A stretch of 64,000 nt of DNA from a virus. The position numbers and the translations under genes are program-made. The stretch covers positions 28,632-92,631 of IMG/VR virus record IMGVR_UViG_3300021963_006415. One strand, 5' to 3'. Below the pieces are notes generated by a model that ran no database searches, was not told where the DNA came from, and worked only from the letters and a program-made list of their open reading frames with translations. Shown here piece after piece: positions 625-61,407 of this stretch. Every line of letters begins with the position of its first letter. Positions within the stretch are counted from its first letter, which is position 1.

Positions 625-625
625 A

Positions 626-2364: not shown

Positions 2365-2365
2365 T

Positions 2366-3250: not shown

Positions 3251-3252
3251 AA

Positions 3253-5417: not shown

Positions 5418-5421
5418 GTTA

Positions 5422-6894: not shown

Positions 6895-6897
6895 AAT

Positions 6898-8325: not shown

Positions 8326-8333
8326 ATTTTAAT

Positions 8334-8651: not shown

Positions 8652-8656
8652 AATAA

Positions 8657-10968: not shown

Positions 10969-10991
10969 AACTTATTATATATGTATATATA

Positions 10992-12718: not shown

Positions 12719-13434
12719 AAAGTTTTAAAATAAATGTTTTTTTCTATTATAGATTCAACATATGTATTAATATTTGAATCGTTTCTACCAAAGCAAACCT
12801 TTGGATGAAAATTTTCTATATAGTTTTCTAAAGTGCAATTTGACCAAATTTGTATTGCAAATTCTTCAATTAAAGTTTTTAAATTTTGATTTTTTGCAAT
12901 TTGTAATAATTCAGTAGCTATGTTAGGATTTGATATGTAAATAAATCCAGCATTTGGTATTATATACGTTTCATCTTTTGACCAAGAGTATTTTTTTATT
13001 AAGTGTGATATATTATAATCAAATGATTCAACATCTTTATTAGAAGATTGTAATTCATTTATAGTATATTCATATATTGGTGCTAAAAATATCTTTGTAT
13101 TAAAATAGTTGAAAAAATCATCATCTAAATTTTTATATAAATTATAATCCCAATCTAAAAAAAGTATTTTTGAAAAGTTTTTAGATGCTTTTTCTATTGC
13201 AATTAATTTATGAATGAATTCATATAAAAATGATGTATATTTAAAATTTAATTTATTTCTATCGCATAGGATAGTAGTATATCCCATCGAATCCAATTGT
13301 AATTTATTTTCAATACCCCATACATATACAATTTCATTATATTGTGGTGTATTTGGAATTAATGATAAATCCATATCTCCCCAAACTGCTCTAACAAATT
13401 TAATATCTCTCGTATTTTGCGGTGTTGTAATCAT
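12715..13434 (-). CDS. GT-A-like glycosyltransferase, putative
   Basis: The 239-residue product has ILFLDWDYNLYKNLDDDF near residue 95 (a DxD-like LDWD site) and IPNAGFIYISNP further on, a layout common in small GT-A enzymes that act on nucleotide sugars. It is the first gene after the tail fibre gene, with a single base between them and no promoter or terminator, so it should share the fibre transcript. That makes the fibre a plausible substrate, which is inference. No membrane anchor is seen. Confidence 0.65.
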   Translation of the reverse strand: MITTPQNTRDIKFVRAVWGDMDLSLIPNTPQYNEIVYVWGIENKLQLDSMGYTTILCDRNKLNFKYTSFLYEFIHKLIAIEKASKNFSKILFLDWDYNLYKNLDDDFFNYFNTKIFLAPIYEYTINELQSSNKDVESFDYNISHLIKKYSWSKDETYIIPNAGFIYISNPNIATELLQIAKNQNLKTLIEEFAIQIWSNCTLENYIENFHPKVCFGRNDSNINTYVESIIEKNIYFKTL

Positions 13435-42291: not shown

Positions 42292-43989
42292 TTATTTACT
42301 TATCAAATAATTACCCAATACCAAATAATCCATATCCGAATTTAGAAATGTCCATATGGCTTTTTGTGGGTCATTAGTCATTGTATGTCCTCTTAAATTA
42401 AAGGATGTATTTAATAGTATTGGTGTACCACTAACTTTCTTAAATTCTTTTAACAAAGTGTGATATAGTTTATTTTGTTTTTTAGTAACAGTGTGTATTC
42501 TAGCGGATTTATCAACGTGTGTTACCGATGGAATTGATTTATAATTGGTAACTTTAACAACCTGATTCATATACGGAACTTCTCCTTCCGATGTAAAGTA
42601 TTTTGTGTATTCTTCTACTACAACCGATGGTGCAAATGGTCTAAATAGTTCTCTCTTTTTAACAACTCTATTTATCCTATCTCTAACATCTGGCAAATGT
42701 GGATTTGCTAATATAGAACGATTTCCTAATGCTCTTGCACCAAATTCGGTTCTACCCTGAAACCAGCCTACTACTGCTCCATCGTTTATTAATTTTGCAA
42801 CTTCTTTACACAACATCGTTACTTCATCATAAAACATTGCTTTATGTGTAACTTCTTCTTTGACAATTATATTTGTCAGTTGTTGATTAGTCCATTCTGG
42901 TCCTAAATACGGAGATTGATTATCTCCACCTTTTACTTTTGGGTTTCCTAATATATTATGCCAATGATATAAACATGCTCCAATAGCAGAACCAGCATCT
43001 GATGGTGCGAATGGAATCCATAAATTACCAACCGGTGCATGCTTTTGTATTTTACCATTAGCAGTTCCATTGTATGCAGAACCTCCACCCAATACTAAGT
43101 TAGATGTATTAGATTGTTGCATACAATTATTTGTAAAATAATAAAAACAACTCTCATACCATTTTTGTAATGCGGCTGCTAAATCCATATGGTGTTGCTC
43201 TATTTTCGATTCTGGCTCTCTTGGTTCTATTCCTATAAGATTTACTAATTTGTATGTGTACATATCAGTATTTGAATATTGCCAAGTAAAATACTTTTGC
43301 TCAATTTCTATACTACCACGAGCATCAAATTTTGAAATCTTATCAAATACGTGCTTATATTTTGTTGGGTCACCATATGGTGCTAATCCCATTACTTTAT
43401 ATTCTCCGTTGTTTGGTTTGAATCCTAAATATGCGGTTATGGTTGAATAAACCAATCCCAATGAGTTTGGAAATTTAAGAGATGCAATTTCTTCAAATGT
43501 ATTATTCTTACACATTACCGCTAATGCACTCTCCCACTCACCAACACCATCTACTGAAATACCAACACAATTATCAAATGGAGACGTGTAATATGAAAAA
43601 GCTAAATGAGAATGATGGTGTTTTATATATTCTATTTTGCCTGTAAAATTTAATTTTTTGGCCAAATATACGTTTAAATTACCTTCAGTTTCTTCAAATT
43701 CTTTTTTAAATTGTTTCCAAATTTTACGATTTTTCCACCAACGTTTTCCTACGGTGTTTTTTACTCTATCGTATTTTAAGATTGGGTCCTCATACCAACA
43801 AATGGTATCTATATCGGATATTGTTTTTTTAGAATAATCTAATACCCACTTAATTGCTTGCTTTGGAAATGAATTATCGTGTTTTATGCCAGATAATTTT
43901 TCTTCTTCAATAGCCGCTATCACTTTTCCGTTTTCAAATAAACAAACTGCTGAATCGTGATAAAATGCGGAAATGCCTAATGAAACCAT
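42292..43989 (-). CDS. Carbamoyltransferase, NodU/CmcH family
   Basis: 565 residues, a full-length member. The N-terminal Kae1/YrdC-like part has LGISAFYHDSAVCLFENGKV (residues 4-23), HHHSHLAFSYYTSPFDN, GISVDGVGEWE and LGGGSAYNGTANGKI. The C-terminal part has QGRTEFGARALGNRSILANP. These enzymes form carbamoyl-AMP from carbamoyl phosphate and ATP and transfer the carbamoyl group to a hydroxyl of a sugar, antibiotic or nucleoside. Here the acceptor could be a virion glycan or a modified nucleotide; the sequence does not decide. It is four bases downstream of the sigma factor gene. Confidence 0.93.
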   Translation of the reverse strand: MVSLGISAFYHDSAVCLFENGKVIAAIEEEKLSGIKHDNSFPKQAIKWVLDYSKKTISDIDTICWYEDPILKYDRVKNTVGKRWWKNRKIWKQFKKEFEETEGNLNVYLAKKLNFTGKIEYIKHHHSHLAFSYYTSPFDNCVGISVDGVGEWESALAVMCKNNTFEEIASLKFPNSLGLVYSTITAYLGFKPNNGEYKVMGLAPYGDPTKYKHVFDKISKFDARGSIEIEQKYFTWQYSNTDMYTYKLVNLIGIEPREPESKIEQHHMDLAAALQKWYESCFYYFTNNCMQQSNTSNLVLGGGSAYNGTANGKIQKHAPVGNLWIPFAPSDAGSAIGACLYHWHNILGNPKVKGGDNQSPYLGPEWTNQQLTNIIVKEEVTHKAMFYDEVTMLCKEVAKLINDGAVVGWFQGRTEFGARALGNRSILANPHLPDVRDRINRVVKKRELFRPFAPSVVVEEYTKYFTSEGEVPYMNQVVKVTNYKSIPSVTHVDKSARIHTVTKKQNKLYHTLLKEFKKVSGTPILLNTSFNLRGHTMTNDPQKAIWTFLNSDMDYLVLGNYLISK

Positions 43990-45683: not shown

Positions 45684-45896
45684 TTATTTTTGCTTTTTTA
45701 ATCCGTATTTTATATATTGATACCAAACTCTTTCATGTAAAAAATAAATAATCGGTTTAAATAATAATTCACCAACTCCAACCATACCTGCCCACTTTAA
45801 TGGTAATCCGGCGGATAATGTTAGTGCAATCGTTGTAAGTGTACCAACAAATCTGTAACTAATACTTTTAGCTATGTGTCGCTTTACCTGTGGCAT
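45684..45896 (-). CDS. DUF2061 small membrane protein
   Basis: 70 residues. KRHIAKSISYRFVGTLTTIALTLSAG, then KWAGMVGVGELLFKPIIYFLHERVWY, is the DUF2061 signature with two membrane helices. DUF2061 proteins are of unknown function and, from what I recall, often accompany sulfate-activation genes. Its ATG lies inside the end of the nucleotidyltransferase-like gene (29-base overlap). Confidence 0.85.
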   Translation of the reverse strand: MPQVKRHIAKSISYRFVGTLTTIALTLSAGLPLKWAGMVGVGELLFKPIIYFLHERVWYQYIKYGLKKQK

Positions 45897-46233
45897 CTAT
45901 TTCTCCTTTTCTAATTTTAGTTCCGCTAATTTCTGCAATTTCTGTTGGTGGTTCGTGGTATATAACTTCATATCCAACACCTCTACCATAGTTTACACTT
46001 TCGATATCTGGAATAATTGATACAAATAGTTTATCCCAATTGTTTTGAAAAAATGTTTCGTTTTGTAACATAGTTAAAACTTCATGAGCTGATTTGGGGT
46101 TGTTCTCATCTTTTGGAACATCTCTAATTGCAACCCATACATTTTTTCCTTTATCCATTTGCTGGCGGATTAACCATTCATGTCCTTTATGCCAGTTCTG
46201 CCAACGGCCTATGAACAATGCGTACTTTTTCAT
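45868..46233 (-). CDS. Cytidylyltransferase-fold nucleotidyltransferase (NMN adenylyltransferase-like)
   Basis: 121 residues. GRWQNWHKGHEWLI (residues 9-22) contains the HxGH-type nucleotide-binding motif, and ISGTKIRKGE near the end corresponds to the ISSTxIR block. This places it in the nucleotidyltransferase superfamily that includes NadR/NadM and adenylylsulfate-related enzymes. It is shorter than bacterial NMN adenylyltransferases (about 165-180), a common state in phages. Substrate is uncertain: NMN or another small adenylate acceptor. It overlaps the UvsE gene end by 47 bases and DUF2061 by 29. Confidence 0.75.
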   Translation of the reverse strand: MKKYALFIGRWQNWHKGHEWLIRQQMDKGKNVWVAIRDVPKDENNPKSAHEVLTMLQNETFFQNNWDKLFVSIIPDIESVNYGRGVGYEVIYHEPPTEIAEISGTKIRKGEIDATGKATHS

Positions 46234-48543: not shown

Positions 48544-48575
48544 CAAATATACACAAAAAAATCAAATTAACCAAC
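48544..48575 (-). promoter_or_regulatory. Bacteroidota-type promoter overlapping a terminator
   Basis: GTTG (48575-48572), 20-base spacer and TATATTTG (48551-48544). The start would fall at the edge of the hsp20 terminator hairpin (48518-48540), upstream of the 58-residue gene. Confidence 0.6.
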
Positions 48576-48965
48576 TTTTATGGAAACTTTTTTGGGTTTA
48601 GATTCTTCTCTTTTATCTACCACCAATGTAAGAATACCATTTTTAAATTCTGCTTTGGCGCTTCTACCATCTAAATCTTTTCCTAATGTAATTCTATCAT
48701 CGATGTTAGCTACTAACTCATCAAATGGAGTTTTTTCATCTTTGGTTTCCCTCTTTGCTTTGATTTCAATCTTATCTTCATAACAATTGATTTCAATGTT
48801 TTTAGGGTCATGTCCTAATACTGATAAAGCTATGTGAGCCTTTTCATCTTTTACATCGACCGCAAATTTAGAAGGAACGAATGTTCTCGAATGTGTTTCC
48901 CAAAGCGGTTTGTTATCCGCTACTAATAATTTCTCAACGAATTTGTCAAAATCTGAATAAAACAT
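48567..48965 (-). CDS. Hsp20/alpha-crystallin small heat shock protein
   Basis: 132 residues. After a short N-terminal arm (MFYSDFDKFVEKLLVADNK) comes the alpha-crystallin domain: FAVDVKDEKAHIALSVLG, PKNIEINCYEDKIEIKAKR, DEKTPFDELVANIDDRITL, and AEFKNGILTLVVDKREESK with the conserved A-x-x-x-(N/D)-G-(V/I)-L motif. It ends in VSIKVG, an I-x-V-type tail used in oligomerisation. It is an ATP-independent chaperone; related genes occur in many T4-like marine phages. It is followed by a strong terminator at 48511-48540. Confidence 0.92.
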   Translation of the reverse strand: MFYSDFDKFVEKLLVADNKPLWETHSRTFVPSKFAVDVKDEKAHIALSVLGHDPKNIEINCYEDKIEIKAKRETKDEKTPFDELVANIDDRITLGKDLDGRSAKAEFKNGILTLVVDKREESKPKKVSIKVG

Positions 48966-50209: not shown

Positions 50210-50899
50210 TTAAATTAGATTAAATAACTCTGGTCTTTTATTTTTTAGTTCATTTAATTGTTCTTTTGTTAAATCCATATGTGTAAAGTCTGTTTCTTTA
50301 CTAAATAAAAACTTAAATCCTTTTATATTTTTATAATTTAAAAATAAATCATATATAAAATTACGATAAACAATATCAGGTTTAAAATTATAAACACCTC
50401 TAATTTGATTTATAAATCCATCTTTAGATATAACAACAACAACTCTACTATAATTAGAATTATCTATATCATATTCTCTAAGCTCTAAAAAATTTTGATA
50501 TGAATTCACTCTTCCACAATTATTCATTCTAAAAACCATTTCGGAACTATAATAGCAATTCAAATCAACCCAATATAATCCTATATTGTTTTTTCTATAA
50601 TCAAACAAAATATTATTATTTTCTATATAATTTTTTGATGTGTAAACTAATTTATTATTAATAACCCAATCTTTGTATAATTCTATTATATCGTTAATAG
50701 ATAATAACTCTAAGCCACCATATTTACCATTATTAACAAAATCTATATAATTTACAATTGGATAAACTATATCCGATACATATTTTGTTGATTTATGTGA
50801 TAGAGATATATTATCCGATTCAATTTTTTTTATAACGAAATCAGAATGCCTGTCGAAATGCGTTTTAATGTATTCTATATTTCTTATTATAGATGCCAT
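50210..50899 (-). CDS. Hypothetical protein, end of modification cassette
   Basis: 229 residues, very AT-rich, no recognised family. It contains GLYWVDLNCYYSSEMVFRMNNCGRVNSYQNFLELR and a later DGFINQIRGVYNFKP segment; the helical end carries TKEQLNELKNKRPELFNLI. The RMNNCGR segment with surrounding Tyr/Trp might be an active-site loop, which is speculation. It overlaps the upstream SGNH gene by one base and is the last gene of the cassette before an early promoter. Confidence 0.65.
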   Translation of the reverse strand: MASIIRNIEYIKTHFDRHSDFVIKKIESDNISLSHKSTKYVSDIVYPIVNYIDFVNNGKYGGLELLSINDIIELYKDWVINNKLVYTSKNYIENNNILFDYRKNNIGLYWVDLNCYYSSEMVFRMNNCGRVNSYQNFLELREYDIDNSNYSRVVVVISKDGFINQIRGVYNFKPDIVYRNFIYDLFLNYKNIKGFKFLFSKETDFTHMDLTKEQLNELKNKRPELFNLI

Positions 50900-51558
50900 T
50901 ATATTATTTTTTTATTATCAATTAATGAGTATAAAAAATGTGCAAAATTTAAATGACCATTAAATGAAAAGTGTGTATCCTTTATTAAACCATTCGTATG
51001 CTTATATATTGTTTCAAATGATGCGTATAGCTCATCATCATCTTCTAAAGACCATATGTAGCAAAACTTAACTTTGGTTTCGCTTAATAATCTTTTTTTT
51101 ATAAAATCAAATCTTTTTTTGTGTCTGTTTTTATAAAAAATATCATTTGAAAAATAATATTGAAAATTTAATATTGTTTCTATTTTATCTTTATCATTTA
51201 TACAATCTTTGTTCAAAATATTTTTAGCACCTTCATATGCTGATAATATGTGATGTATGTTATCATCAATAGGAACATCAATTCTTCCATATAAGGTTGT
51301 ATTTATTATAACAATATCATTATTTTGGATGGAATCAAAATTATCAATTATACTATCGAATATGTAGTCATTAGAAGCTCCATTTTTTCCAAAATTTTTA
51401 ACATCATAATTTAATAAATTACCTAAATGATTTGGCCAAATATCATCACCTTTATTCTTATATAAAGAATACTTCACACTAACATCGGATTTACAATTTA
51501 TATTACAACCATGACCAAATGTCATAGAATCTCCAAAAGTCCAAAGCACAGTACTCAT
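50899..51558 (-). CDS. SGNH/GDSL hydrolase-like protein
   Basis: 219 residues. The N-terminus has VLWTFGDSMTFGHGCN, a GDS block with candidate nucleophile Ser11. GKNGASNDYIFDSII is the Asn-containing block and DTHFSFNGHLNFAHFL near the end gives the Asp-x-His pair. It is a paralogue of the truncated gene at 1-624. SGNH proteins act as esterases, acetylhydrolases or acyltransferases on glycans. Its ATG overlaps the FkbM-type methyltransferase stop by four bases. Confidence 0.8.
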   Translation of the reverse strand: MSTVLWTFGDSMTFGHGCNINCKSDVSVKYSLYKNKGDDIWPNHLGNLLNYDVKNFGKNGASNDYIFDSIIDNFDSIQNNDIVIINTTLYGRIDVPIDDNIHHILSAYEGAKNILNKDCINDKDKIETILNFQYYFSNDIFYKNRHKKRFDFIKKRLLSETKVKFCYIWSLEDDDELYASFETIYKHTNGLIKDTHFSFNGHLNFAHFLYSLIDNKKII

Positions 51559-52166
51559 ATGAATCTTTTAATATTTTTTTTACAAAATTGAACATCTATA
51601 TCATATCTTTTTAAACTCTTTTTAAATAATTGTATTTCTGATGAATTGATTATATCGAAATCATTTTCTTTTAAAAAATTTATTACATCATCTATATAAT
51701 TAAAACTATTTAAATATAAATCTTCAAATAAAGATACTTCTACCTTGCCTCTTTTTATTATTGATATTTTTTCTCCAAATGATTTTAAAATTTTAAAATC
51801 CTCACCTTGAGCATCGCAATGAAAATAATCTACATAATTAATTTTATTTTGATTTAAAAACGCATCCATTCTTATAACATCTACCAATATTTTATCTACA
51901 TACTTTATTTTACTATTTTGATTAGCAAATTGAGTTAATTGATTTAAAGAAGAAGATAATCCATCACTTGCTAAATTAAAAAAGGAAGTTCCGTTAAAAT
52001 CACTAACCGCTTTTTCTATTATATTAACATTCTTATATCTTTTAAATTTGTTTTTTAATAAATTAGCATATATTGGATTTGGTTCAAAACACCAAACGTT
52101 TGCATTATCTAAAAAACCAATTGTGTGGCTTCCATCATTAGAGCCTATTTCAATTATATTTTTCAT
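51555..52166 (-). CDS. FkbM-type SAM-dependent methyltransferase
   Basis: 203 residues. NIIEIGSNDGSHTIGFL is the SAM-binding glycine motif; VWCFEPNPIYANLLKNKF, VNIIEKAVSDFNGTSFFN and VIRMDAFL...DYFHCDAQGEDFKILKSF follow the FkbM family pattern (E-P, A-x-x, D-x-x-G-x-E). FkbM enzymes O-methylate sugars and polyketides, so a glycan acceptor is likely. It overlaps both neighbours by four bases, a sign of translational coupling. It ends in KRFI. Confidence 0.85.
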   Translation of the reverse strand: MKNIIEIGSNDGSHTIGFLDNANVWCFEPNPIYANLLKNKFKRYKNVNIIEKAVSDFNGTSFFNLASDGLSSSLNQLTQFANQNSKIKYVDKILVDVIRMDAFLNQNKINYVDYFHCDAQGEDFKILKSFGEKISIIKRGKVEVSLFEDLYLNSFNYIDDVINFLKENDFDIINSSEIQLFKKSLKRYDIDVQFCKKNIKRFI

Positions 52167-52861
52167 ATCAGTTTTCCGGATTTAAATAAATGCCTATTCA
52201 ACATTTTTTCAGCCATATGATATACTCCATTTTTTTCTAAATTATCATAAGATGGGTTACTATCAAATAAATAATTAATATTATTAAAATATAAATTAAT
52301 GTATTGTTGATTTAATGTAATTGGTGGAACACCATTGTACCTTTCAATAAAAAAATCATAATTCTTGTCTATAATTTTCAACACATCAGAATAAGATTTA
52401 TTAACGTTTAAATAATCATTAGTCGCCACTATACACGTGTTATTTAATTCGTTAAATTTTAGAGGGATGTTAGAATAACGTTTATATATTTCAGTAAAAT
52501 GCTCTGTTTGGGTTTCACTTAAAGGATGTTTGTAACCTAAGTTCAGTTTATCACCATCTACGATGTTCATTAATTTACTAAAATCTTCAACTAATAAATC
52601 ATTATCTAAATGTATAAATGGAAAATCAATTGTGGATAATACTTTTAATTTAGGATATGACCATAACGCGTTTCGATTATATTTTTCATCTATCTCAAAT
52701 TTAATCCATTTATATTTTAGACCCACCTGTTCGAAATAATCTTTATCGGAATATATCAAAGGAATGATGTTTTGACTATTTAAATTTTCAATAGAGTATT
52801 TTAAATATATTTCAGTAGTTTGTTTAAGTCTAATTGGTAAATATGTAAATACAACTTGCAT
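52163..52861 (-). CDS. GT-A-like glycosyltransferase (HLDND type)
   Basis: 232 residues. FPFIHLDNDLLVEDFSKL near residue 80 holds a D-x-D site, and VYHMAEKMLNRHLFKSG lies at the end. The N-terminus QVVFTYLPIRLKQTTEIYLKYSIENL resembles GT-A-like nucleotide-sugar enzymes that start with an 'S.......Y...' helix. Donor and acceptor are unknown. It overlaps the downstream methyltransferase by four bases and the upstream gene by one. Confidence 0.7.
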   Translation of the reverse strand: MQVVFTYLPIRLKQTTEIYLKYSIENLNSQNIIPLIYSDKDYFEQVGLKYKWIKFEIDEKYNRNALWSYPKLKVLSTIDFPFIHLDNDLLVEDFSKLMNIVDGDKLNLGYKHPLSETQTEHFTEIYKRYSNIPLKFNELNNTCIVATNDYLNVNKSYSDVLKIIDKNYDFFIERYNGVPPITLNQQYINLYFNNINYLFDSNPSYDNLEKNGVYHMAEKMLNRHLFKSGKLI

Positions 52862-54114
52862 TATAATAAAGATTTTTTAATTAAAAATTCAGTTTTCAAA
52901 CCTCCATCAATTATCAAATCCAATAATGAATTTTCATTTTCTATTTTATACATTAGTTTGTTATGTACCAAATCGGACCATTCTTTACATAATCTATAAT
53001 TTTCATCAAAATTATGTAAAAAATCTTTAATAAAACATGCAAACATTTTTGAGTTTGCTCTAAATTCCTTAGATTCTTTATAAAAAGGATGCGGTCTTAC
53101 ACCTAACATAGATTGAACTATATCTAACGGATAATTATGCGTTGAAACAAAAGGTATCGAAGCTAATAGCAAGCTTAATGTTTTTTCTGAAAGATATTGT
53201 GATGTAAAATCTCTATCACTCCAAGACCAACTTTCGCATAATATTTGCATTTTGGATTTTGGAAGAACTCTAAAAAATACATCCATATATCCTTGGTGAT
53301 TTGCTATATAACTAATATCATCAAAATCTTTTTCACCATATATAGAATTGGTTTTTATATGAGTTATTTTTGGAGAATACTTTTCATATGCTTGATTTTG
53401 TAAAGCATTTGTATGTTGTAAATACAACCTATCATTTTTTAATTTACTTAATTCATTTATAATATTAATTCTGTTTATTTTATGATTCTTAATACTGTAC
53501 ATTAAATCATAATCAAAGTTTAATTTATCATATACTTGCTTAAACTCATAATACCATCTAACATTCCAATTTGTATTCCATTGAAATATTGTGTTTGTTA
53601 ATACATAATAAAAATTTGGGTACTGCTGTTTTATCGATTCGTTTAAAAAAAAATTATCTGTAATTATATGATGCTGACTCAATTGAGATATCAAAGATTC
53701 TATTTCTAACCATTTTTCATCAAAGTAATTAACATCTTTAGTTTGTAATATTTTTTCAGTTCTAAAATATGTTATTATCCATTTTTGATTTTTTGGACAA
53801 TTTTTTAATAAATTTATAAATATTTTTAAAATTTGTTGAGTTTCTCTTTCCATATACTGCATATCTGGCAGAATAGCACCTATTTTTGGGTCATTTTTCC
53901 CATATGAAAATGCCGCAAAATAATCTAATATATGGATACCATCTTCTTCAAAACTCATCTCTTGCTTAAAAATGAATTCTAATTTTGTATTATTGTACTT
54001 ACAAAATATACTTCCCTCATTATTATCTTTTATATCAAAGATTCTATTTGTAGTATTATGCGCTAATTTATAAAAAATAGATTTATTATAATAATGATGT
54101 ATGTATATTTTCAT
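52861..54114 (-). CDS. Putative glycosyltransferase, exostosin/GT-B-like C-terminus
   Basis: 417 residues. The N-terminal 260 residues are Asn/Tyr-rich and lack known motifs. The C-terminal third has LCESWSWSDRDFTSQYLSEK followed by TLSLLLASIPFVSTHNYPLDIVQSMLG, which fits the 'E......SEKt...l....Pfv' block of exostosin-like and other phage glycosyltransferases. It probably transfers a sugar to a glycan or protein acceptor. It shares one base with each neighbour. Confidence 0.6.
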   Translation of the reverse strand: MKIYIHHYYNKSIFYKLAHNTTNRIFDIKDNNEGSIFCKYNNTKLEFIFKQEMSFEEDGIHILDYFAAFSYGKNDPKIGAILPDMQYMERETQQILKIFINLLKNCPKNQKWIITYFRTEKILQTKDVNYFDEKWLEIESLISQLSQHHIITDNFFLNESIKQQYPNFYYVLTNTIFQWNTNWNVRWYYEFKQVYDKLNFDYDLMYSIKNHKINRINIINELSKLKNDRLYLQHTNALQNQAYEKYSPKITHIKTNSIYGEKDFDDISYIANHQGYMDVFFRVLPKSKMQILCESWSWSDRDFTSQYLSEKTLSLLLASIPFVSTHNYPLDIVQSMLGVRPHPFYKESKEFRANSKMFACFIKDFLHNFDENYRLCKEWSDLVHNKLMYKIENENSLLDLIIDGGLKTEFLIKKSLL

Positions 54115-54725
54115 TAAATTAAATTATTTAAAATATTAGAATATGCAGATTCATTTATTCCCATTTTTTTCAATATTTCATTTGCTATATAGTAATGGCC
54201 TTTTACATTTGGGTGCCCAATCGAATCTATTGAATATTTATTTTTTATCATATGTTCTTTATTAATTAATAAAGATTTATCCCAATTTATTTCCGAATAT
54301 ACTGATAAATTTTTTACGCTAATATCTAAATCCATATAATTAAAAAAGAAATAATTAATTTTATTATTTTCTAAAAAATTTTGTAATAAGAACATATAAT
54401 GTAAAGTGTGTTTACTAGCCATAGGTTCAAATTTTGGAAATAATTCAGTCCAATCGTAAGGAGTAACTAAACGTTCACTTCCATCAATATCACAATGAGT
54501 TCTTCTAGATGGTCCGGACCATTGTAATATTACTAAATCTGGATTAGATTTTAATTTTAGTAAATCTTCTAACGCAGTATGCAATATCCAATCATTGCCA
54601 ACGCTACATTTTGAAGAATTTGTAATATCACAATTAAAATAACTTTTTAATAATGATGGATATGAATTTTGTTTATTTACCCCATAACCATAAGTAACTG
54701 AACATCCAATAGAATAAATAAACAT
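54114..54725 (-). CDS. SGNH hydrolase-like protein
   Basis: 203 residues. IYSIGCSVTYGYGVN is the N-terminal nucleophile block, with Cys replacing Asp before Ser9; SVGNDWILHTALEDLL is the Asn-containing block; DSIGHPNVKGHYYIANEI is the C-terminal His block. These match SGNH proteins such as those near polysaccharide genes. It ends LNNLI, and its stop overlaps the next ATG by one base in the sequence TTAATTTAATG. It is more distant from the 51558 and 624 copies than those are from each other. Confidence 0.75.
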   Translation of the reverse strand: MFIYSIGCSVTYGYGVNKQNSYPSLLKSYFNCDITNSSKCSVGNDWILHTALEDLLKLKSNPDLVILQWSGPSRRTHCDIDGSERLVTPYDWTELFPKFEPMASKHTLHYMFLLQNFLENNKINYFFFNYMDLDISVKNLSVYSEINWDKSLLINKEHMIKNKYSIDSIGHPNVKGHYYIANEILKKMGINESAYSNILNNLI

Positions 54726-54727
54726 TT

Positions 54728-55216
54728 TTAAATTAATTTAGATTCTTCATTTTTAATTCTTAAACGATTATAACTATTTATATCAAATAAATTTTCATAG
54801 TATTGAATTTCAATATTTAATATCTTTGATAGTGTTTCTATTTCTTTAATCCATTTAAAGATATCACTTGTGCATAAATCTATAATATTTTTTGGCGGTT
54901 GTTTATAGCAATATTTATTATTAGAATTATACCCCTCTACTTTTGAAAAATAAGTTTGATATGAATGAGATTCTATCAACTCTTTTAAATTTTTTCTACT
55001 TAAAAGTATAACTTCATCAAATGATTTTGCTAATTCTAAATTATTGGGGTGGTGAGAAATTATCGTTTTAACAACTGAATTATTTTGATTATTATAAATA
55101 ACTCTATTAGTTCCATCAAATGGTTCAAAGAATGGTTTTAAATTTTTTTCATTTGCCAACCTATACATCAAAGATGTTGAGCCTGTTCTTGGTAAGGCTA
55201 TTATTAATATTTTCAT
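54728..55216 (-). CDS. Sulfotransferase-like P-loop protein (short)
   Basis: 162 residues. ILIIALPRTGSTSLMYRLA (residues 3-21) is the 5'-phosphosulfate-binding loop of PAPS-dependent sulfotransferases, and DEVILLSRKNLKELIESHSYQ near residue 70 corresponds to the 3'-phosphate-binding region. It is shorter than usual sulfotransferases (250 or more), so it could be reduced or partly degraded. The likely reaction is sulfate transfer from PAPS to a glycan or tyrosine. It overlaps the oxygenase upstream by four bases. Confidence 0.75.
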   Translation of the reverse strand: MKILIIALPRTGSTSLMYRLANEKNLKPFFEPFDGTNRVIYNNQNNSVVKTIISHHPNNLELAKSFDEVILLSRKNLKELIESHSYQTYFSKVEGYNSNNKYCYKQPPKNIIDLCTSDIFKWIKEIETLSKILNIEIQYYENLFDINSYNRLRIKNEESKLI

Positions 55217-55776
55217 AAAAAAGATTTTTCTTTTTTCATAGGTATAAATCTATTTTCTTCCTCCGATAACCAAATATTTAAAGCATATCGTTCACCTTTG
55301 GTCACAGGCAAAACACCGTGAAAAATTTCATTTCCTATAAAAGATATACCATCTCCTTTAGAAAGTTTTATAAGTTTTATATTATTTAAATTTTCAAAAT
55401 GATAGTTGTTACTAACCTTATTTGTTATAGCAAATCTTCCATCTTCATACTCATCATTTAAAGTTATAACAATTGTTAAAGAACTACTGGAATCTTTATG
55501 TAAATTTAAATATCTTCCATCATAGTATGCAGTTAAACTTACGTTTATACTTTTTACTTTTAAAGATTCAAAATCCATCCATAAATTCCAATCCCCCGCT
55601 TTATATTTACTTTCTAATATTTTATATACTTTTAGCTTCAATTCCTCATCATAAATTCTTCTACAATCCCAATTTTCATTTGGATTATAATTAAATGGTA
55701 CTCCTATTTCTAATGCTTTTTTTAGAAAATAAGAACATTCATCATCATTAAAAAAATTATTTATTGTATAGTTCAT
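55213..55776 (-). CDS. Fe(II)/2-oxoglutarate-dependent oxygenase
   Basis: 187 residues with the iron triad: LNLHKDSSSSLT (H-x-D) near residue 99, NEIFHGVLPVTKGERYALNIW with the second His and the 2-oxoglutarate-binding Arg. The fold between has VITLNDEYEDGRFAI, a double-stranded beta-helix pattern typical of prolyl 4-hydroxylase-like enzymes. It would hydroxylate a side chain of a protein or peptide, or a sugar. It overlaps both neighbours by four bases. Confidence 0.88.
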   Translation of the reverse strand: MNYTINNFFNDDECSYFLKKALEIGVPFNYNPNENWDCRRIYDEELKLKVYKILESKYKAGDWNLWMDFESLKVKSINVSLTAYYDGRYLNLHKDSSSSLTIVITLNDEYEDGRFAITNKVSNNYHFENLNNIKLIKLSKGDGISFIGNEIFHGVLPVTKGERYALNIWLSEEENRFIPMKKEKSFL

Positions 55777-56591
55777 ATTAGATGTGATTTTTTTACTGCA
55801 TCGTAATTTAATAAATTATTATTATCTATGAAACTAAATAATTCATCCGCAATAAATTTATATCCATTACTATTTGGGTGTTTACCCACAATATCCGACC
55901 AAGACTCATTATCTTCCCATACATCATTTTGTTTAGTATCTATTAGTAAGTCAGCCATTGTTTTGGTTTGATAACCCCAATATCGATTGATACCTATTAA
56001 ATTGGTTTTATTAATCAATGTATCTATATTTTTACTAATCATAGTATCAAACGCATCACAAAAAAGATATCTAATTCCTAACTCTTTGAACATAAACTGA
56101 AGATGAAGAATATAGTTTTGATTCACTATATCGTAGTATGCATCATTAAATAAATTAGCTATGTAGTAATTTCTAAAATTTTTCTCTGCTTTGTTATATT
56201 TTACACTATCTCCACTTATTCCATCAAATATATTTTTAAAAATATGTCCCTTACTTTTATATCGTTTACCCCATATAAAAAAATCATCTTCATTGTGAAA
56301 AAAAGGTAAGGGGTCTCTTAACGATGATGACCACATAACAACAACAAAATCATCTTTGGTGATAATTTCATTTTTCAGTTGATAAAAAATTGTATTAAAT
56401 ATTGCATTATTTGAGAAACCACCAACTCCATTATTTTTAACCTCACAACCAAGCGATTCAGACAGGTATTTTGGCCAACAATATTTTTGTCTTATTTTTG
56501 TTTTTTCTTCGGGAATATTGGTAGTATCTTCTTCTCTAATATTCCCACCAACTCCTTCTGTCCAGCTATCACCATATGTAAATAATTTCAT
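55773..56591 (-). CDS. SGNH hydrolase-like protein, long form
   Basis: 272 residues. KLFTYGDSWTEGVGGN is the GDS block (Ser9). GVGGFSNNAIFNTIF contains the Gly/Asn blocks; GKHPNSNGYKFIADEL is the C-terminal His block. An insert of about 60 residues after WSSSLRDPLPFFHNEDDFFI makes it longer than its relatives. It probably acts as an esterase or acyltransferase on a glycan. It lies three bases after the sulfotransferase gene and overlaps the oxygenase. Confidence 0.75.
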   Translation of the reverse strand: MKLFTYGDSWTEGVGGNIREEDTTNIPEEKTKIRQKYCWPKYLSESLGCEVKNNGVGGFSNNAIFNTIFYQLKNEIITKDDFVVVMWSSSLRDPLPFFHNEDDFFIWGKRYKSKGHIFKNIFDGISGDSVKYNKAEKNFRNYYIANLFNDAYYDIVNQNYILHLQFMFKELGIRYLFCDAFDTMISKNIDTLINKTNLIGINRYWGYQTKTMADLLIDTKQNDVWEDNESWSDIVGKHPNSNGYKFIADELFSFIDNNNLLNYDAVKKSHLI

Positions 56592-56594
56592 ACA

Positions 56595-57335
56595 CTATAT
56601 GATTGATAAGTTATTTTTAATAGAACCATCAATATACTTATTAACAAACTCTACTAACTCCGGTGTTCTCTTTACTTTAGAAGTTATTGAATTTTGATTT
56701 ACATGCATTAATTTAAAATCAACATTAAATTTATTAGACATATATGATTCAAATTCATACAATTTATCAAAATCAAATGTTTTAACTTTTACTCTATCGT
56801 TTAGAATCCAATGATATTGTGATGATAATCCAAATGTGTGAATTTGAAATCTATCATTGAACGCCTCATTAGTCAAATATTTTTGCTTAAACCCTAAATC
56901 GATTAATAATTTTTCAAAGAAAGATTTTCTAATATCTTGAGAGGAATAAATGTTTGTATATTCCGAATAGTTTTTTTTAATAAAATCAATTACAAACGAA
57001 TTATCTATATTTGTTAAATGATAAATAGTTTCTTCATCCGGATGTAGTTCACACATACCAGCTATAAAAAATCTCCAAGCGGATATAAACCTATCGGTAG
57101 AATCTCTTATTATTGAAACAAATTCAAAATCAGAACCAAAGCTAGCTATTAAAGAATGAAGTTTAGAATGTATGTGATTTCTTTTATTTTTCATTCTGAT
57201 ATTAGACCTAATCGAATTTTCCCATAAAGTATTTGGGAACTTTAAATCAAAACCATAAAATATACAGGATTCCTCTACAGACCAAGAAGCATTTTTAGGT
57301 ATTGGAATAAATGCAACTTTATCATTTATAATCAT
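56595..57335 (-). CDS. Sulfotransferase family 2-like protein
   Basis: 246 residues. VAFIPIPKNASWSVEES (residues 8-24) is the PAPS 5'-phosphosulfate loop of the family 2 type (vPKxAstS), and FEFVSIIRDSTDRFISAWRFF near residue 75 is the RDPxxRxxSxY block that binds the 3'-phosphate. The C-terminus is a helical substrate-binding region. It would transfer sulfate to a glycan. It is clearly different from the short P-loop protein at 54728. It requires PAPS, which must come from the host or another part of the phage genome. Confidence 0.8.
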   Translation of the reverse strand: MIINDKVAFIPIPKNASWSVEESCIFYGFDLKFPNTLWENSIRSNIRMKNKRNHIHSKLHSLIASFGSDFEFVSIIRDSTDRFISAWRFFIAGMCELHPDEETIYHLTNIDNSFVIDFIKKNYSEYTNIYSSQDIRKSFFEKLLIDLGFKQKYLTNEAFNDRFQIHTFGLSSQYHWILNDRVKVKTFDFDKLYEFESYMSNKFNVDFKLMHVNQNSITSKVKRTPELVEFVNKYIDGSIKNNLSII

Positions 57336-57336
57336 A

Positions 57337-57888
57337 TTAAATTAAACTTTTTGCGTTTTTAATTTTATTTTTTATTTGAAACCCCAAACTTAAAGTTATT
57401 CTAGGTTTATCACCAATAACAGGCGTAGAACCATGCATTACTTTTCCCGCAACACACCTCCAAACCATTTTTTCTTTAAGCTCGTTTATTTTTCCATTAT
57501 AAATTGAATGACCGCCTTCGTTTGGATACGATATTATTACATTATATCTAATGTGTGTATAACCTTCTAAATTTGGGTCACTATGTAGATGGATATTACC
57601 GCCGGCTTTATTTATACCAATACCATCTTCAAAATTTGGTTCTGTAACCCATTCATTAATTTTTTCTAAATTTATTATTCTATTTTTTATAGAACTAACT
57701 AACTCAAATATATTAGTATGAAATTCTTTTATAACCAAATACTTTCTAGAACCATATGGTGATGATTTTGATTCATTTACAGGAAAAATAAACTCATTTT
57801 CTTTTATCCAATTTAAAAAAGTTAATTGTTCACTATCGGATATAAAGTTTTCATACCCATATGTATCATATAGCTCGACTCGATTCAT
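57337..57888 (-). CDS. Fe(II)/2-oxoglutarate-dependent oxygenase
   Basis: 183 residues. NIHLHSDPNLEGYTHIRYNV holds the H-x-D pair; VWRCVAGKVMHGSTPVIGDKPRITLSLGFQ holds the distal His and the Arg. PNEGGHSIYNGKINELKEK lies between them. The pattern resembles phage and bacterial 2OG oxygenases that hydroxylate proteins or small molecules. It follows the 38-residue peptide gene after 20 bases. It ends NAKSLI on the recurring TTAATTTAA junction. Confidence 0.87.
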   Translation of the reverse strand: MNRVELYDTYGYENFISDSEQLTFLNWIKENEFIFPVNESKSSPYGSRKYLVIKEFHTNIFELVSSIKNRIINLEKINEWVTEPNFEDGIGINKAGGNIHLHSDPNLEGYTHIRYNVIISYPNEGGHSIYNGKINELKEKMVWRCVAGKVMHGSTPVIGDKPRITLSLGFQIKNKIKNAKSLI

Positions 57889-57908
57889 AACTAATTAAAT
57901 TAAATTAT

Positions 57909-58025
57909 TTATTGAGTAACATCCGTATATATAATAGATGCAACTTCTTGCATTATAGTTGCTATGCTAGAATTTGTAGATGAGCTTGTTAATACTACTT
58001 CTGATGATATGATTTTTGGTTTCAT
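57909..58025 (-). CDS. 38-residue Ser/Thr-rich peptide, candidate substrate peptide
   Basis: A short frame, ATG at 58025 to TAA at 57909-57911, encoding a peptide with a basic start (MKPKIISSEV), a Ser/Thr-rich middle (VLTSSSTNSSIAT) and an end IIYTDVTQ. It fills the gap between the ATP-grasp/Hint-like gene and the oxygenase gene. Small size, Ser/Thr content and neighbours that modify peptides make it a candidate precursor, but it has no leader/core signature I can name. It could also be a fortuitous frame. Confidence 0.45.
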   Translation of the reverse strand: MKPKIISSEVVLTSSSTNSSIATIMQEVASIIYTDVTQ

Positions 58026-58043
58026 TTTATTAAATTATTTATA

Positions 58044-59573
58044 TTATAGTTTAGGTATTGGGCCATAGCAAAAAGAGCAACTATTACAGTAATAATAAGC
58101 ACATGAGCTCGTCCAACACCAACCATAGCATGGATTGTGTTGGATAAACGATAATCCTAAATTTTCATCTGCTAAAGGTAAAAACAAATCATTCTCTTCC
58201 ACATCTATATCATATACTTTTCTATTTGCATATACCACTTCTAAATTTGTTATTTTAGATTTAACCAATGTATTATTATTATAATCATAAAACACAATGG
58301 AATCATTTACTCTAAATTCATTTGTATGAGAGAAAATTGTTCTAAGAGTATCATATTCTTCTATTAACATATCACTATGTGGCAAATCTTCATAAATCAA
58401 CCCATTTTCTAGAGTTACTTTTATCATTAAAGATTCCTTAGTTTCACTAACTAAATTAACTATTGTAGTGCCTGTTATACCAAACGTAGTTAAATCTTCG
58501 GCAAAACTTCCAGAATTTACAGTTGGTATATACAATGGTTCGCCTGTTTCCGATATATCATTTGCCGGCACCCAAGGTAATGTAACTGTTTTTAAAACAT
58601 CATTTTCAAGTACTTGATTCGGAAATTTCATTGAACCATCTGCGTATAATATCTTAGTATCATCATCAAAAATGTATGAAATACCCATTCTTTGGTTAGG
58701 CGATTTACTAATCCATAAAGGTCTTGCTTCCTGATTCATTAAACCATTAGAATTATATAATGTATCCCAACTATTAGCTTTAATAGGTGATGTCATTATA
58801 TATGAACCCAAATGTAAACAATTTAATGTAGAACCATATATAATATCTAAACTTCTGATAACACCCATTTTTTCTTCAACCACATTATCAGTATTTGAGT
58901 GAAACTCTTCTAAATACTCTAAAGATGTTAACGAAGCTTTTAATGTTGCTAAATCTTCTAAAGAATTTACTTTATATAATTTTGGATATTGTACATAATC
59001 CGTATTTGGATATCTAGTCTTTACAATATAGTTTGGAGCATCTCCATCTGTTAAATGTAATTCTATCAAATTATCTACATTAAGACTTGTATCGGTTGAT
59101 GAGTTATAATATATTTTTGTTGAAAAAGATTGATTAGAAACTGCTCTATGAAAATTCACTTTATCTTTTGCATAACTTTCATCAATAATAGCTGTTGTAT
59201 CATATGATGTTCTTAATATTAAAGTATCATCTGCATCTTCTACATATGGAACTGTTATTGAATTTTTTGCAACTTCATATGCGGTAAATGTACCACCAAT
59301 TTCGTTTGCAACCTCTTCCAATTTATCTTTTAAAGTTAGTTTTGGAATATGCGTATCGAATCTTGTGGCTCTTTCTGTATTTATGAAATTACCATCTGTA
59401 TAAATAAAATGTAATTTAGATATAGAGTTATCTATTAAAAATTGTTTAAAAGATACCCAATCTAAATCAGGCACAATTATATTATGCACATCTACATTAG
59501 TATTTGTTTCTACAATTTTTAAGTTACCATTGTTATCTTTAACAAAGTCAGTTCCAATTATTACGGCTTTCAT
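58044..59573 (-). CDS. ATP-grasp-like enzyme fused to a Hint/intein-like domain with Cys-rich tail
   Basis: 509 residues. The N-terminus MKAVIIGTDF, GNLKIVETNTNVDV has an E-x-N-T-N block that in ATP-grasp enzymes binds metal near the C-terminus, so the domain may be permuted. ADDTLILRTSYDTTAIIDE and NYIVKTRYPNTDYV follow, then VIRSLDIIYG. Residues of about 365-480 look like a Hint domain: VTLENGLIYEDLPHSDMLI, FRVNDSIVFYD, KVYDIDVEENDLFLP and SFIQHNPC. I see no clear first-block Cys or Ser. The last 29 residues have six cysteines (482, 486, 491, 496, 499, 502) with several Tyr and Trp. An ATATTTATAA motif lies 16 bases upstream of the ATG. The tail could be a released or modified Cys-rich peptide. 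Confidence 0.65.
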   Translation of the reverse strand: MKAVIIGTDFVKDNNGNLKIVETNTNVDVHNIIVPDLDWVSFKQFLIDNSISKLHFIYTDGNFINTERATRFDTHIPKLTLKDKLEEVANEIGGTFTAYEVAKNSITVPYVEDADDTLILRTSYDTTAIIDESYAKDKVNFHRAVSNQSFSTKIYYNSSTDTSLNVDNLIELHLTDGDAPNYIVKTRYPNTDYVQYPKLYKVNSLEDLATLKASLTSLEYLEEFHSNTDNVVEEKMGVIRSLDIIYGSTLNCLHLGSYIMTSPIKANSWDTLYNSNGLMNQEARPLWISKSPNQRMGISYIFDDDTKILYADGSMKFPNQVLENDVLKTVTLPWVPANDISETGEPLYIPTVNSGSFAEDLTTFGITGTTIVNLVSETKESLMIKVTLENGLIYEDLPHSDMLIEEYDTLRTIFSHTNEFRVNDSIVFYDYNNNTLVKSKITNLEVVYANRKVYDIDVEENDLFLPLADENLGLSFIQHNPCYGWCWTSSCAYYYCNSCSFCYGPIPKL

Positions 59574-59589
59574 CAGTTATTTCTTTTTG

Positions 59590-59600
59590 TTATAAATATT
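59590..59600 (-). promoter_or_regulatory. Late-type motif before ATP-grasp/Hint-like gene
   Basis: Minus-strand AATATTTATAA followed by CAAAAAG, 16 bases before the ATG at 59573. It suggests late expression of the modification cassette. Confidence 0.6.
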
Positions 59601-59606
59601 AATATT

Positions 59607-60242
59607 TTAAATTAAACTTACTTTTTCTTTTACATATTCAAACCCAACATTACCGGCTATTACTATTCTATCTTTAGTAGAATTAGGCGAATTATTTGGA
59701 GAATGCTCTAATGTTCCATCCATAACAATCAGGTCACATACTTCCGGCATTATATAATATCTTTTACCTTCTTTACCCCCAATAATCAATGTACCCTCAT
59801 TGTTTTCTAAATTATCAGGCATCTGCAAATAATATACAAATGTGTAATTTGGATAAAACAATCCATCTTTTTTTTGTAAATCTACATGATTATGTAGGGA
59901 TACTTCCTCATTTTTTTTGAAATTAGTTTGTTTTGGTTTTCCCTTTCTAACAACATTTATCCAACACCCAAATTTGATTATATTAAAATTCATTTTATTC
60001 GTTTTTGCTAAAGATGCACATTCCGCTAAACAAAGTTTTACAGCTTGCTCCATAAAATTATTTGGAATAAAATCTTTTTCTAAATCAAAAAAGTCGCCAC
60101 CGAAAAAAGAATAATTATCCCTCCTTGCATAACTATTTATTAGATAATCTTCACATTCTTTTAAAACTAATTTTTGAAAATCATATGAATCTATTTTTGT
60201 CTTATAGACAAATATCCCATCTTCAAACGTAATTTTTTCCAT
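59607..60242 (-). CDS. Fe(II)/2-oxoglutarate-dependent oxygenase
   Basis: 211 residues. EVSLHNHVDLQKKDG has the H-x-D pair, NYTFVYYLQMPDNLEN lies in the core, and DGTLEHSPNNSPNSTKDRIVIAGN has the distal His and the Arg. The type is that of phage 2OG oxygenases that carry a 'HxD...H...R' set. It lies two bases after the zinc-ribbon gene upstream and before the late motif at 59590. The stop lies in TTTAATTTAA. Confidence 0.85.
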   Translation of the reverse strand: MEKITFEDGIFVYKTKIDSYDFQKLVLKECEDYLINSYARRDNYSFFGGDFFDLEKDFIPNNFMEQAVKLCLAECASLAKTNKMNFNIIKFGCWINVVRKGKPKQTNFKKNEEVSLHNHVDLQKKDGLFYPNYTFVYYLQMPDNLENNEGTLIIGGKEGKRYYIMPEVCDLIVMDGTLEHSPNNSPNSTKDRIVIAGNVGFEYVKEKVSLI

Positions 60243-60244
60243 AT

Positions 60245-60541
60245 CTAAATAGTTGTTTTTTGTTTTTTACTTTTTAAGGTAAGAGATTTTACATATGGCT
60301 CTTCCACTATATTCCATTTATCCAATGGACAACTACCATATTGGTCTGTAAATATTTTTTTTGATAGAGGACATCCACACTTACCACATAAAGCAGACCA
60401 TTTTTTATTATGAATTATTTCCTTACGCATATCACATCCCATACAAATATTCAGCCTAAGTTCTGCTAATTCTTTTTGCATTTTATTTGGGTTTTCTGCT
60501 GTTACCCAAGCTTTTAATATTTCTATTAAATCAAATCCCAT
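60245..60541 (-). CDS. Small zinc-binding protein (DUF6171-like)
   Basis: 98 residues with eight apparent metal-binding positions: NICMGCDMR, ALCGKCGCPL and GSCPLDKW. These arrange as two or more Cys-x2-Cys knuckles, like DUF6171-type zinc-ribbon proteins found in marine phages. A structural zinc site is likely. It may bind nucleic acid or a partner oxygenase. It starts one base after the stop of the upstream prolyl hydroxylase-like gene. Confidence 0.75.
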   Translation of the reverse strand: MGFDLIEILKAWVTAENPNKMQKELAELRLNICMGCDMRKEIIHNKKWSALCGKCGCPLSKKIFTDQYGSCPLDKWNIVEEPYVKSLTLKSKKQKTTI

Positions 60542-60542
60542 T

Positions 60543-61103
60543 TTATAATAAAGTTTTTTTAATATTTTTTATTTGTTTTAATTTCAACCAATTTACTAAA
60601 GAGTATCTTATACCTGAAGTTATTGGTTTAACCCTATGTACCACTTCCGAAGGAAATATAAATAGATTTCCTACTCCTTTTTCTAATGTAATTTCTTTAT
60701 TTGTTAAAAGTTGAAACTCACCATCCATATATTCATCATTCAATTGCAGGACTATTGTATAAAATCTATCTTTAAATACCGTATCATTTGAATCGGCATG
60801 CCAATCAAAGAAATCGCCTTTTTCATATTTTGTAAACTGAAAGGTATCCAAAGATGGTTCATATCCTTTTATATTCTCAACATGCTCTTTGACTTTATCT
60901 AAAATTTTATTACCCACTATTCCAATATCTTCTACAAAAGAAACCTTAGATTTTCTCGTTTCTTTTTTTCTTTGAATATTATCAGGGTGATATACTTCCG
61001 CATTACTTAATTCCGAATCAATGTTATAATTGTTTATCAACAAATCACACTCATCCTTTTCTAAAAATTTCGGAATAGTTAGTATTTTATAATCATTTTG
61101 CAT
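60543..61103 (-). CDS. Prolyl 4-hydroxylase-like 2OG oxygenase
   Basis: 186 residues. FQFTKYEKGDFFDWHADSND (H-x-D at about residue 105), TIVLQLNDEYMDGEFQL and FPSEVVHRVKPITSGIRYSLVNWL (His and Arg) form a complete prolyl 4-hydroxylase-like set. It would hydroxylate Pro or Asp/Lys side chains in a target protein. The NDEYMDGEFQL block is shared in style with the oxygenase at 55213. It is one base downstream of the 100-residue gene. Confidence 0.9.
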   Translation of the reverse strand: MQNDYKILTIPKFLEKDECDLLINNYNIDSELSNAEVYHPDNIQRKKETRKSKVSFVEDIGIVGNKILDKVKEHVENIKGYEPSLDTFQFTKYEKGDFFDWHADSNDTVFKDRFYTIVLQLNDEYMDGEFQLLTNKEITLEKGVGNLFIFPSEVVHRVKPITSGIRYSLVNWLKLKQIKNIKKTLL

Positions 61104-61104
61104 A

Positions 61105-61407
61105 TTATAACTTATTTTTTATAGAATGTAATTTAGCACATTCTTCGTACATCTCTAATTCAGTTAACCTATTCATCAACCATTTACCCATAGAATTAAA
61201 ATCCTCTCTCTTTAGAGTTATATATGCTGGCATAGATTTATACTTAATCAGTATTATTTCCCTACACTTACGATTTGATTTCCAGTTATCCAACTTATCA
61301 ACCAATTCTGAAAGGTTTTGTTTAGATAATCTAGTCTTAGGAAGATATGTTTTCCACTCCAAAGATATCCATCCCTTTTCCAATTTATCTAAGACTGTAA
61401 TATTCAT
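61105..61407 (-). CDS. Hypothetical protein, first gene of the cassette
   Basis: 100 residues, basic, with DKLEKGWISLEWKTYLPKTR and WMNRLTELEMYEECAKLHSI. No family is recognised. Its ATG at 61407 lies six bases after the TATATTG box at 61414-61420, so the leader is nearly absent. It opens the oxygenase part of the cassette. The role is unknown. Confidence 0.65.
   Translation of the reverse strand: MNITVLDKLEKGWISLEWKTYLPKTRLSKQNLSELVDKLDNWKSNRKCREIILIKYKSMPAYITLKREDFNSMGKWLMNRLTELEMYEECAKLHSIKNKL

Follow-up and report, generated by a model that had tools for sequence, protein, structure and literature searches.

A tagged gene cassette around a hypervariable, cysteine-rich protein tail suggests a peptide-tailoring pathway in uncultured phages

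The window analysed here is a stretch of 64,000 nucleotides that makes up bases 28,632–92,631 of the 92,631-base virus record IMGVR_UViG_3300021963_006415. Contractile-tail genes are present, and the baseplate wedge protein of this phage is 40–43% identical to those of Flavobacterium phage immuto and Microcystis phage Mel-JY01. The subject of this report is a cassette on the minus strand (50,210–61,103) in which neighbouring genes overlap by 1–4 bases or are separated by a few, the gaps being wider on either side of the gene for a 509-residue protein, termed C4 (58,044–59,573). C4 ends in a hypervariable Cys-rich tail, and unrelated enzymes encoded around it share the C-terminal motif K-[TS]-[LI]-[IL]-COOH, referred to below as the tag. 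The arrangement recurs across many contigs and is therefore not a product of chance.

An original prediction, made from the DNA letters, had described the cassette as a dense set of group-transfer and oxidation enzymes. Its gene calls, strand and overlaps were borne out by re-inspection (Table 1). All four of the 2-oxoglutarate (2OG) oxygenases that it named have the H-x-D...H...R pattern by eye, with uneven family support, and its FkbM methyltransferase was recovered by Pfam. This methyltransferase and two of the 2OG enzymes pass curated cut-offs; the remaining assignments draw on weaker matches and motifs. Both proteins that had been likened to sulfotransferases of the 3'-phosphoadenosine-5'-phosphosulfate (PAPS) type have motifs to match, together with weak family matches; IPKNAS and RDSTDRFISAW in the longer one are taken by us to be sulfotransferase motifs. 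The three SGNH-like proteins all score under the Pfam cut-offs. Of the two supposed glycosyltransferases, one (52163–52861) has DUF6734 as its sole match, and the label of the other (52861–54114) was not confirmed, with zero family matches. Four genes had been passed over: C4, the six-Cys protein C5, the small open reading frame (ORF) C6 and the gene at 50210–50899.

Table 1. Features of the cassette and its flank, with C-terminal residues, tag status and family matches (match values in brackets).
Position	Strand	Feature	C-terminus	Tagged	Match or remark
61105–61407	−	100-residue ORF	HSIKNKL	no	probably flank rather than cassette
60543–61103	−	2OG-Fe(II) oxygenase	KNIKKTLL	yes	PF13640 (1.3e-13)
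60245–60541	−	C5, 98 residues, six conserved Cys	SKKQKTTI	tag-like; untagged under the scoring pattern	DUF6171 (0.0023), phrog_13558 (7e-9)
59607–60242	−	2OG oxygenase	VKEKVSLI	yes	phrog_81, PHROG 2OG family (6.5e-11)
59592–59598	−	TATTTAT box			promoter-like; ~18–25 bases upstream of C4 start
58683–59573	−	C4 residues 1–297, N-terminal domain			ATP-grasp-like motif, fold not proven
58134–58682	−	C4 residues 298–480, Hint/intein fold (predicted)			N-terminal nucleophile lost, His479-Asn480 kept
58044–58133	−	C4 residues 481–509 with stop codon; hypervariable tail with six Cys, PCYGWCWTSSCAYYYCNSCSFCYGPIPKL			disordered in model
57909–58025 (approximate)	−	C6, conserved 38-residue ORF immediately after C4
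57337–57888	−	2OG-like protein	IKNAKSLI	yes	phrog_13746, function unknown (1.2e-7), sole match
56595–57335	−	PAPS-type sulfotransferase-like	IKNNLSII	yes	phrog_3347 (1.2e-4); IPKNAS, RDSTDRFISAW
55773–56591	−	SGNH-like	AVKKSHLI	yes	DUF6071 (6.5e-5), Lipase_GDSL (0.0044)
55213–55776	−	2OG-Fe(II) oxygenase	MKKEKSFL	yes	PF13640 (1.4e-8)
54728–55216	−	short sulfotransferase-like	KNEESKLI	yes	PF13469 (0.053); PRTGSTS
54114–54725	−	SGNH-like	SNILNNLI	yes	DUF6071 (0.0013)
52861–54114	−	417-residue protein	FLIKKSLL	yes	no family match
52163–52861	−	DUF6734-like, possible glycosyltransferase	LFKSGKLI	yes	DUF6734 (6.4e-5)
51555–52166	−	FkbM methyltransferase	KKNIKRFI	yes	PF05050 (1.3e-11)
50899–51558	−	SGNH-like	LIDNKKII	yes	Lipase_GDSL_2 (0.0024)
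50210–50899	−	protein without useful family match	RPELFNLI	yes

Relatives were collected along three routes in IMG/VR. Searches with C4 gave 8 loci, or 13 with a profile; C5 as bait gave 498, of which 80 were kept (6 of these 80 being contigs that C4 had already found); and a divergent C4 profile gave 229, of which 80 were kept. The pool comprises 164 loci, 107 of them non-redundant, with contigs already in the set omitted (L010–L015, L018, L022–L038 and L041). C4 is present in 162 of the 164, and on more than 100 IMG/VR contigs. No match to C4 was found in 50,697 cultured phage records with four tblastn queries from different branches, nor was C5 matched in cultured phages, and none was confirmed for C4 in two scans of GTDB genomes (84,980 bacterial and archaeal species). 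C4 likewise had no match among PDB sequences or PHROGs, its relatives reaching 0.09 or worse in the latter. On this sampling, the C4-bearing phages are a widespread yet uncultured group of bacterial viruses.

Immediately 3' of C4 lies an ORF of 25–58 residues in 101 of 106 loci (and C6 follows C4 in all 14 loci of the first set); by eye there are three sequence types, each conserved within itself. The loci compared show C4 and this small ORF to be the constant pair of the locus. C5 is constant in most loci and adjoins C4 in 78 of the 80 found with C5 as bait, the two exceptions (L042 and L098) being contigs that end within ~85 bases after C5. Short 72-residue copies of C5 without the extension or tag are seen at L007:8812–9030, where this is a second copy, and at L100:3150–3368. 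A 2OG gene of the kind at 59607–60242 adjoins C4 upstream in 11 of the 14 first-set loci, and profile relatives of the longer sulfotransferase-like protein occur in 74 of the 80 C5-bait loci. Enzyme content otherwise differs from phage to phage, with C4 and the small ORF staying the same. Random variation in the content of homologous clusters, which the original prediction had named as counting against it, is thus not what was found: the satellite enzymes are swapped around a constant core of C4, the small downstream ORF and mostly the six-Cys protein. The sequence TATTTAT occurs within 60 nucleotides upstream of C4 in 96 of the 107 loci, compared with 62 of 481 other gapped genes, and by inference is a promoter-like box of late type.

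The AlphaFold2 model of C4, made with 100 relatives, has a mean predicted local distance difference test score of 83.1 (below 50 for residues 482–509 of the tail) and a predicted template modelling score of 0.79. In this model residues 298–480 match a bacterial-intein-like domain (Foldseek E of 4.2e-8) and align with the NpuDnaB intein (VIA-align Z of 16.1, r.m.s.d. of 2.1 over 139 residues); a Hint fold is predicted for this region. Pfam gives weak Hint-type matches (Intein_splicing 0.018; PT-HINT 2.9e-4 for the relative in L105, below cut-off). At column 300, which corresponds to the first residue of an intein, the 100 relatives have Tyr (54), Pro (45) or Phe (1) and never Cys, Ser or Thr, and the N-terminal nucleophile is therefore gone. 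The terminal His-Asn pair of a C-terminally cleaving Hint domain is present at the junction with the tail (His479-Asn480) in all 100; position 462 has Asp in 55 of them and His in 36. The residues that are left are presumably the set used for C-terminal Asn cyclization. The residue that follows His-Asn varies (Gly in 22, Ser in 22, Ala in 13, Pro in 11, Val in 10, Thr in 6, and others). C4 does not fit a protein-splicing intein, as it has no Cys, Ser or Thr at the first position and none fixed at +1. In two C4-bearing phages, other proteins with an intact-looking Hint domain (L267:3879–5639 and L268:3854–5113) are encoded directly, or nearly so, upstream of tail-sheath-like genes.

The N-terminal part of C4 (residues 1–297) has five invariant residues (D9, E22, N24, K185 and R240) and two that are nearly so (K138 and E223), and their order is reminiscent of a circularly permuted ATP-grasp. 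Matches to the RimK Pfam family reach 0.019 at best, in 3 of 50 proteins, and the hhalign comparison of C4 with E. coli RimK is not significant (E of 0.18, compared with 0.41 and 0.5 for two unrelated proteins). The fold search reported no match for this region, which it barely probed.

The tail that follows His-Asn is 25–68 residues long and differs in 99 of the 100 relatives. Cys makes up 19.6% of the tail and 0.5% of the core, and the number of Cys residues is even in 98 of 100 tails (six in 65, eight in 31, ten in one and twelve in one). Across eight close pairs the tail DNA is 74–91% identical. For L063 and L069, identity is 99% over the 150 bases that lead up to the tail and 98–99.8% on the downstream side, compared with 84% in the tail; for L003 and L004 the corresponding values are 100, 97–98 and 78%. 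In L080/L083 and L095/L085 the downstream side diverges as well, such that the contrast is one-sided. By these comparisons the tail is a hypervariable island. Pooled over 87 non-independent pairs, the ratio pN/pS of non-synonymous to synonymous divergence is.19 in the core and.45 in the tail, and in several pairs synonymous divergence in the tail is far above that of the core, both kinds of site being raised. Positive selection alone was rejected as the source of the variation since synonymous sites diverge as well, and the raised synonymous divergence suggests exchange. A GIY-YIG endonuclease-like gene, assigned by eye, lies near C4 at L163:9608–10114 and is a possible homing element in the variable region.

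A few C4 proteins continue beyond the tail. A motif scan of the pooled loci found an S74-like stretch in L007 and L100 (Pfam 0.02 for L100, below the gathering score), and in L179 (7001–8884) the Cys-rich tail is followed by a complete, canonical and intact-looking second Hint domain (Intein_splicing 1.3e-12). Judged from their sequences, domains after the tail, where there are any, are of the self-processing kind.

The consensus of the tag has Lys at −7 and −4, Thr or Ser at −3, Leu or Ile at −2 and Ile or Leu at −1, and is alike in three branches of C4. In the first 14 loci, proteins ending in Ile or Leu number 132 of 143 in the cassette families and 52 of 185 elsewhere. Across the 107 non-redundant loci, 92/102, 89/101 and 81/94 of the genes at positions +1, +2 and +3 from C4 are tagged (88% overall), as are 71/105 at −1, with C4 itself scoring in 1 of 106; among distinct distant genes (−8 and beyond, or +12 and beyond) the share falls to 29 of 241 (12%). 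Many neighbours that are formally untagged end in near variants such as KTIV, KSLT and KTLY. In the phage of the window the tag is present in 13 of 14 cassette genes and in 3 of 76 others (Fisher 4.6e-12), the flank gene at 61105–61407 being counted among the latter. By eye, some of these 76 are SGNH-, methyltransferase-, radical SAM- and glycosyltransferase-like genes. A second group of such genes lies at 1–13434 of the window, beside a giant fibre gene (13436–19969), and is almost untagged, with one exception at 1519–2364. Among close homologues of one radical SAM protein, 54 of 57 are tagged and the remaining three end in THTSLI; C4 is present in every one of the 14 that have 9 kb of sequence on either side. 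No untagged homologue far from C4 was found among these, and this bait therefore serves as no negative control.

Codon use within the tag was compared with the background of the gene bodies. Ser codons at −3 are used at nearly the background rate (tag and background: TCA.33 and.34, AGT.29 and.25, TCT.20 and.23). ATA has a share of 0.71 at the last codon compared with 0.48 in the background. Where the gap to the next gene is at least 6 bases, Ile at −1 is encoded by ATT 59 times, ATA 58 times and ATC 8 times. The last codon encodes Leu 153 times and Phe 13 times, and the tag is retained in 104 of 141 cases in which the next gene is 31–100 bases away. Since codon use is near background and the tag persists before wide gaps, it is a feature selected on the protein; an origin from ribosome-binding sites was rejected on codon use.

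The tagged and neighbouring genes of the relatives extend the repertoire from 2OG, sulfotransferase-like and SGNH proteins to radical SAM (1.7e-7), SET (1.1e-12) and family 2 glycosyltransferase (1.6e-5) proteins. The L179 cassette, whose tail is Trp-rich, encodes a tryptophan halogenase (10200–11720; 5.6e-107). Adenosine-5'-phosphosulfate (APS) kinase, the maker of PAPS, was found in 12 of 12 large relatives tested and thus in 12 of 13 records, the exception being that of the window. At 45684–46233 of the window lie the gene for a DUF2061 membrane protein (6.2e-12) and a small gene resembling a cytidylyltransferase; both adjoin APS kinase in relatives, hinting at sulfate activation by the phage. 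Two further genes of the window are found near the cassette in several relatives: an HSP20-type small heat-shock protein (48567–48965; 3.6e-11), which there lies beside it, and an untagged carbamoyltransferase (42292–43989; 3.7e-63).

Our best reading of these data is that the cassette may be a tag-coordinated tailoring operon acting on the tail of C4. Whether the operon makes a decorated, hypervariable, disulfide-type peptide as the C-terminal tail of C4 is a question on which we are evenly divided. The constant part of C4, or the product of the small ORF, would gather the tagged enzymes, with the tag as a docking signal. Oxygenases, sulfotransferases, glycosyltransferases, methyltransferases, SGNH and radical SAM proteins, in whatever combination, could then be swapped in and still reach the tail, which would become hydroxylated, sulfated or glycosylated and disulfide-bonded. 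Asn cyclization by the Hint domain may cut the tail from its carrier. Least certain of all, the product may sit on the virion tip and vary against host receptors; the virion is favoured as its destination because of the promoter-like box, the fibre-like neighbours and the S74-like ends. A broader proposal is distinctly more tentative: a common four-residue C-terminal tag for docking would allow phages to add nearly any modifying enzyme, and one hypervariable, disulfide-rich peptide on a self-cleaving Hint carrier would be diversified chemically through both gene swapping and changes of sequence. The original prediction, a modification of a virion glycoprotein, a secreted glycan or a peptide, pointed in the right direction, although it overlooked C4 with its Cys-rich tail as the likely substrate, and also the tag and the Hint domain.

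Several observations weigh against this reading. The tag pattern was fixed after inspection of the first 14 loci, which are themselves counted, most of the 107 having been fetched later. Some genes at +1 to +3, GNAT-like ones among them, are untagged, the halogenase of L179 ends in DNIQVL, off the pattern, and no domain that would read the tag was recognized. Several of the enzyme labels are sub-threshold, and the substrate of the SGNH and glycosyltransferase proteins could be a glycan rather than the tail. APS kinase is absent from the record of the window, which is a fragment. Late expression of C4 is suggested by a single sequence box, and the unfixed +1 residue makes ordinary splicing unlikely, with cleavage only putative.

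C4 could alternatively be a structural tail-tip adhesin in which the Hint domain is merely a scaffold and the tail stays attached, decorated in place, with nothing released. This is possible, if on the whole doubtful. S74 is known from tail fibres, and the S74-like domains in L007 and L100, the second Hint domain in L179, the promoter-like box on C4, the large fibre-like genes beside the cassettes of L008, L016 and L017, and the Hint proteins next to tail-sheath-like genes in two relatives would all suit an adhesin. A pure scaffold, however, has no obvious need of an invariant His-Asn pair, the S74 match is under the gathering score and C4 is absent from all cultured phage records searched.

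It is unlikely that the peptide is instead freed by Hint cleavage as a diffusible effector, bacteriocin-like or anti-host, as in polymorphic toxins. HINT domains are described (PMC3482391) as freeing the C-terminal toxins of such systems, and C4 has the same order of trunk, HINT and variable tip, with the PT-HINT match in L105. The ORF after C4 is conserved, unlike a matching immunity gene, and an enzyme toxin would need more length than the tail has. We consider it similarly improbable that a glycan or small metabolite is what the enzymes make and that they have only their place in a hypervariable island in common with C4, the tag serving virion packaging, localization or turnover: glycosyltransferase-, SGNH-, carbamoyltransferase- and nucleotide-sugar-like genes do occur in the same phage, but these other groups are nearly untagged and tag frequency drops with distance from C4. 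That the tag arises as a side effect of translation signals where stop and start codons overlap, as the many 4- or 1-base overlaps, the A+T-rich motif codons and the enrichment of ATA might suggest, is largely refuted by the near-background synonymous codons, the tags before 31–100-base gaps and the preference for Leu over Phe, and is very improbable.

If the tailoring reading is correct, phages would possess a combinatorial peptide chemistry that we have not found described before. The tag would be a genetic handle for finding enzymes of the pathway, and adding it to an enzyme should direct that enzyme to a chosen peptide. It could also explain the abundance of orphan oxygenases, sulfotransferases and SGNH genes in aquatic phages.

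Searches of the literature, at the level of titles and opening abstracts, returned no comparable system; together with the database searches, this agrees with the earlier statement that no described phage pathway is known to have such a gene set. We know of no phage counterpart to unrelated enzymes that surround a hypervariable peptide and end in the same C-terminal motif. Short C-terminal sorting or docking peptides are found in the peroxisomal targeting signal PTS1 and the docking ends of nonribosomal peptide and polyketide synthases. There too a few C-terminal residues are common to unrelated enzymes, whereas the C4-associated tag has other residues and a phage setting.

For C4 itself several partial likenesses can be drawn. 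With inteins, bacterial intein-like domains and Hedgehog it shares the predicted Hint fold (Z of ~16) and terminal His-Asn, but it lacks Cys, Ser or Thr at the first position and a fixed +1 nucleophile, and would at most undergo C-terminal cleavage. Two relatives resemble S74 phage tail fibres in having an S74-like domain after the tail, whereas most C4 proteins, at ~500 residues and with Hint, have no S74 and no recognized fibre part. The short, bounded, hypervariable gene end is reminiscent of diversity-generating retroelements; such a role for the tail is not supported, as RVT_1 reverse transcriptase was found in 0 of 13 records (possibly fragments), no second copy of the tail was found in the 92.6-kb record of the window, and synonymous sites vary too. 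Like the PT-HINT polymorphic toxins, C4 has a constant trunk, Hint and a variable C-terminal tip, but the tip is a Cys-rich peptide of 25–68 residues with tailoring enzymes around it, and the small downstream ORF is conserved within three types, unlike the variable, matching immunity gene of such toxins.

Parallels also exist with ribosomally synthesized and post-translationally modified peptides (RiPPs), in which a short segment rich in Cys, Trp and Tyr, with a hypervariable core, ends a longer precursor, and oxygenase, radical SAM, methyltransferase and halogenase genes lie nearby. At the C4 loci a variable-core precursor gene likewise stands beside tailoring genes of the 2OG, sulfotransferase-like, radical SAM, SET and halogenase families. 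The C4 system differs in that its precursor part is ~480 residues long with a Hint domain, it is phage-borne and its modifications are predicted ones. Recruitment also looks reversed, the short motif being borne by the enzymes on the C4 side. The tagged enzymes around the C4 tail suggest a pathway for decorating a viral peptide, undescribed so far, that borrows from RiPPs, polymorphic toxins and inteins.

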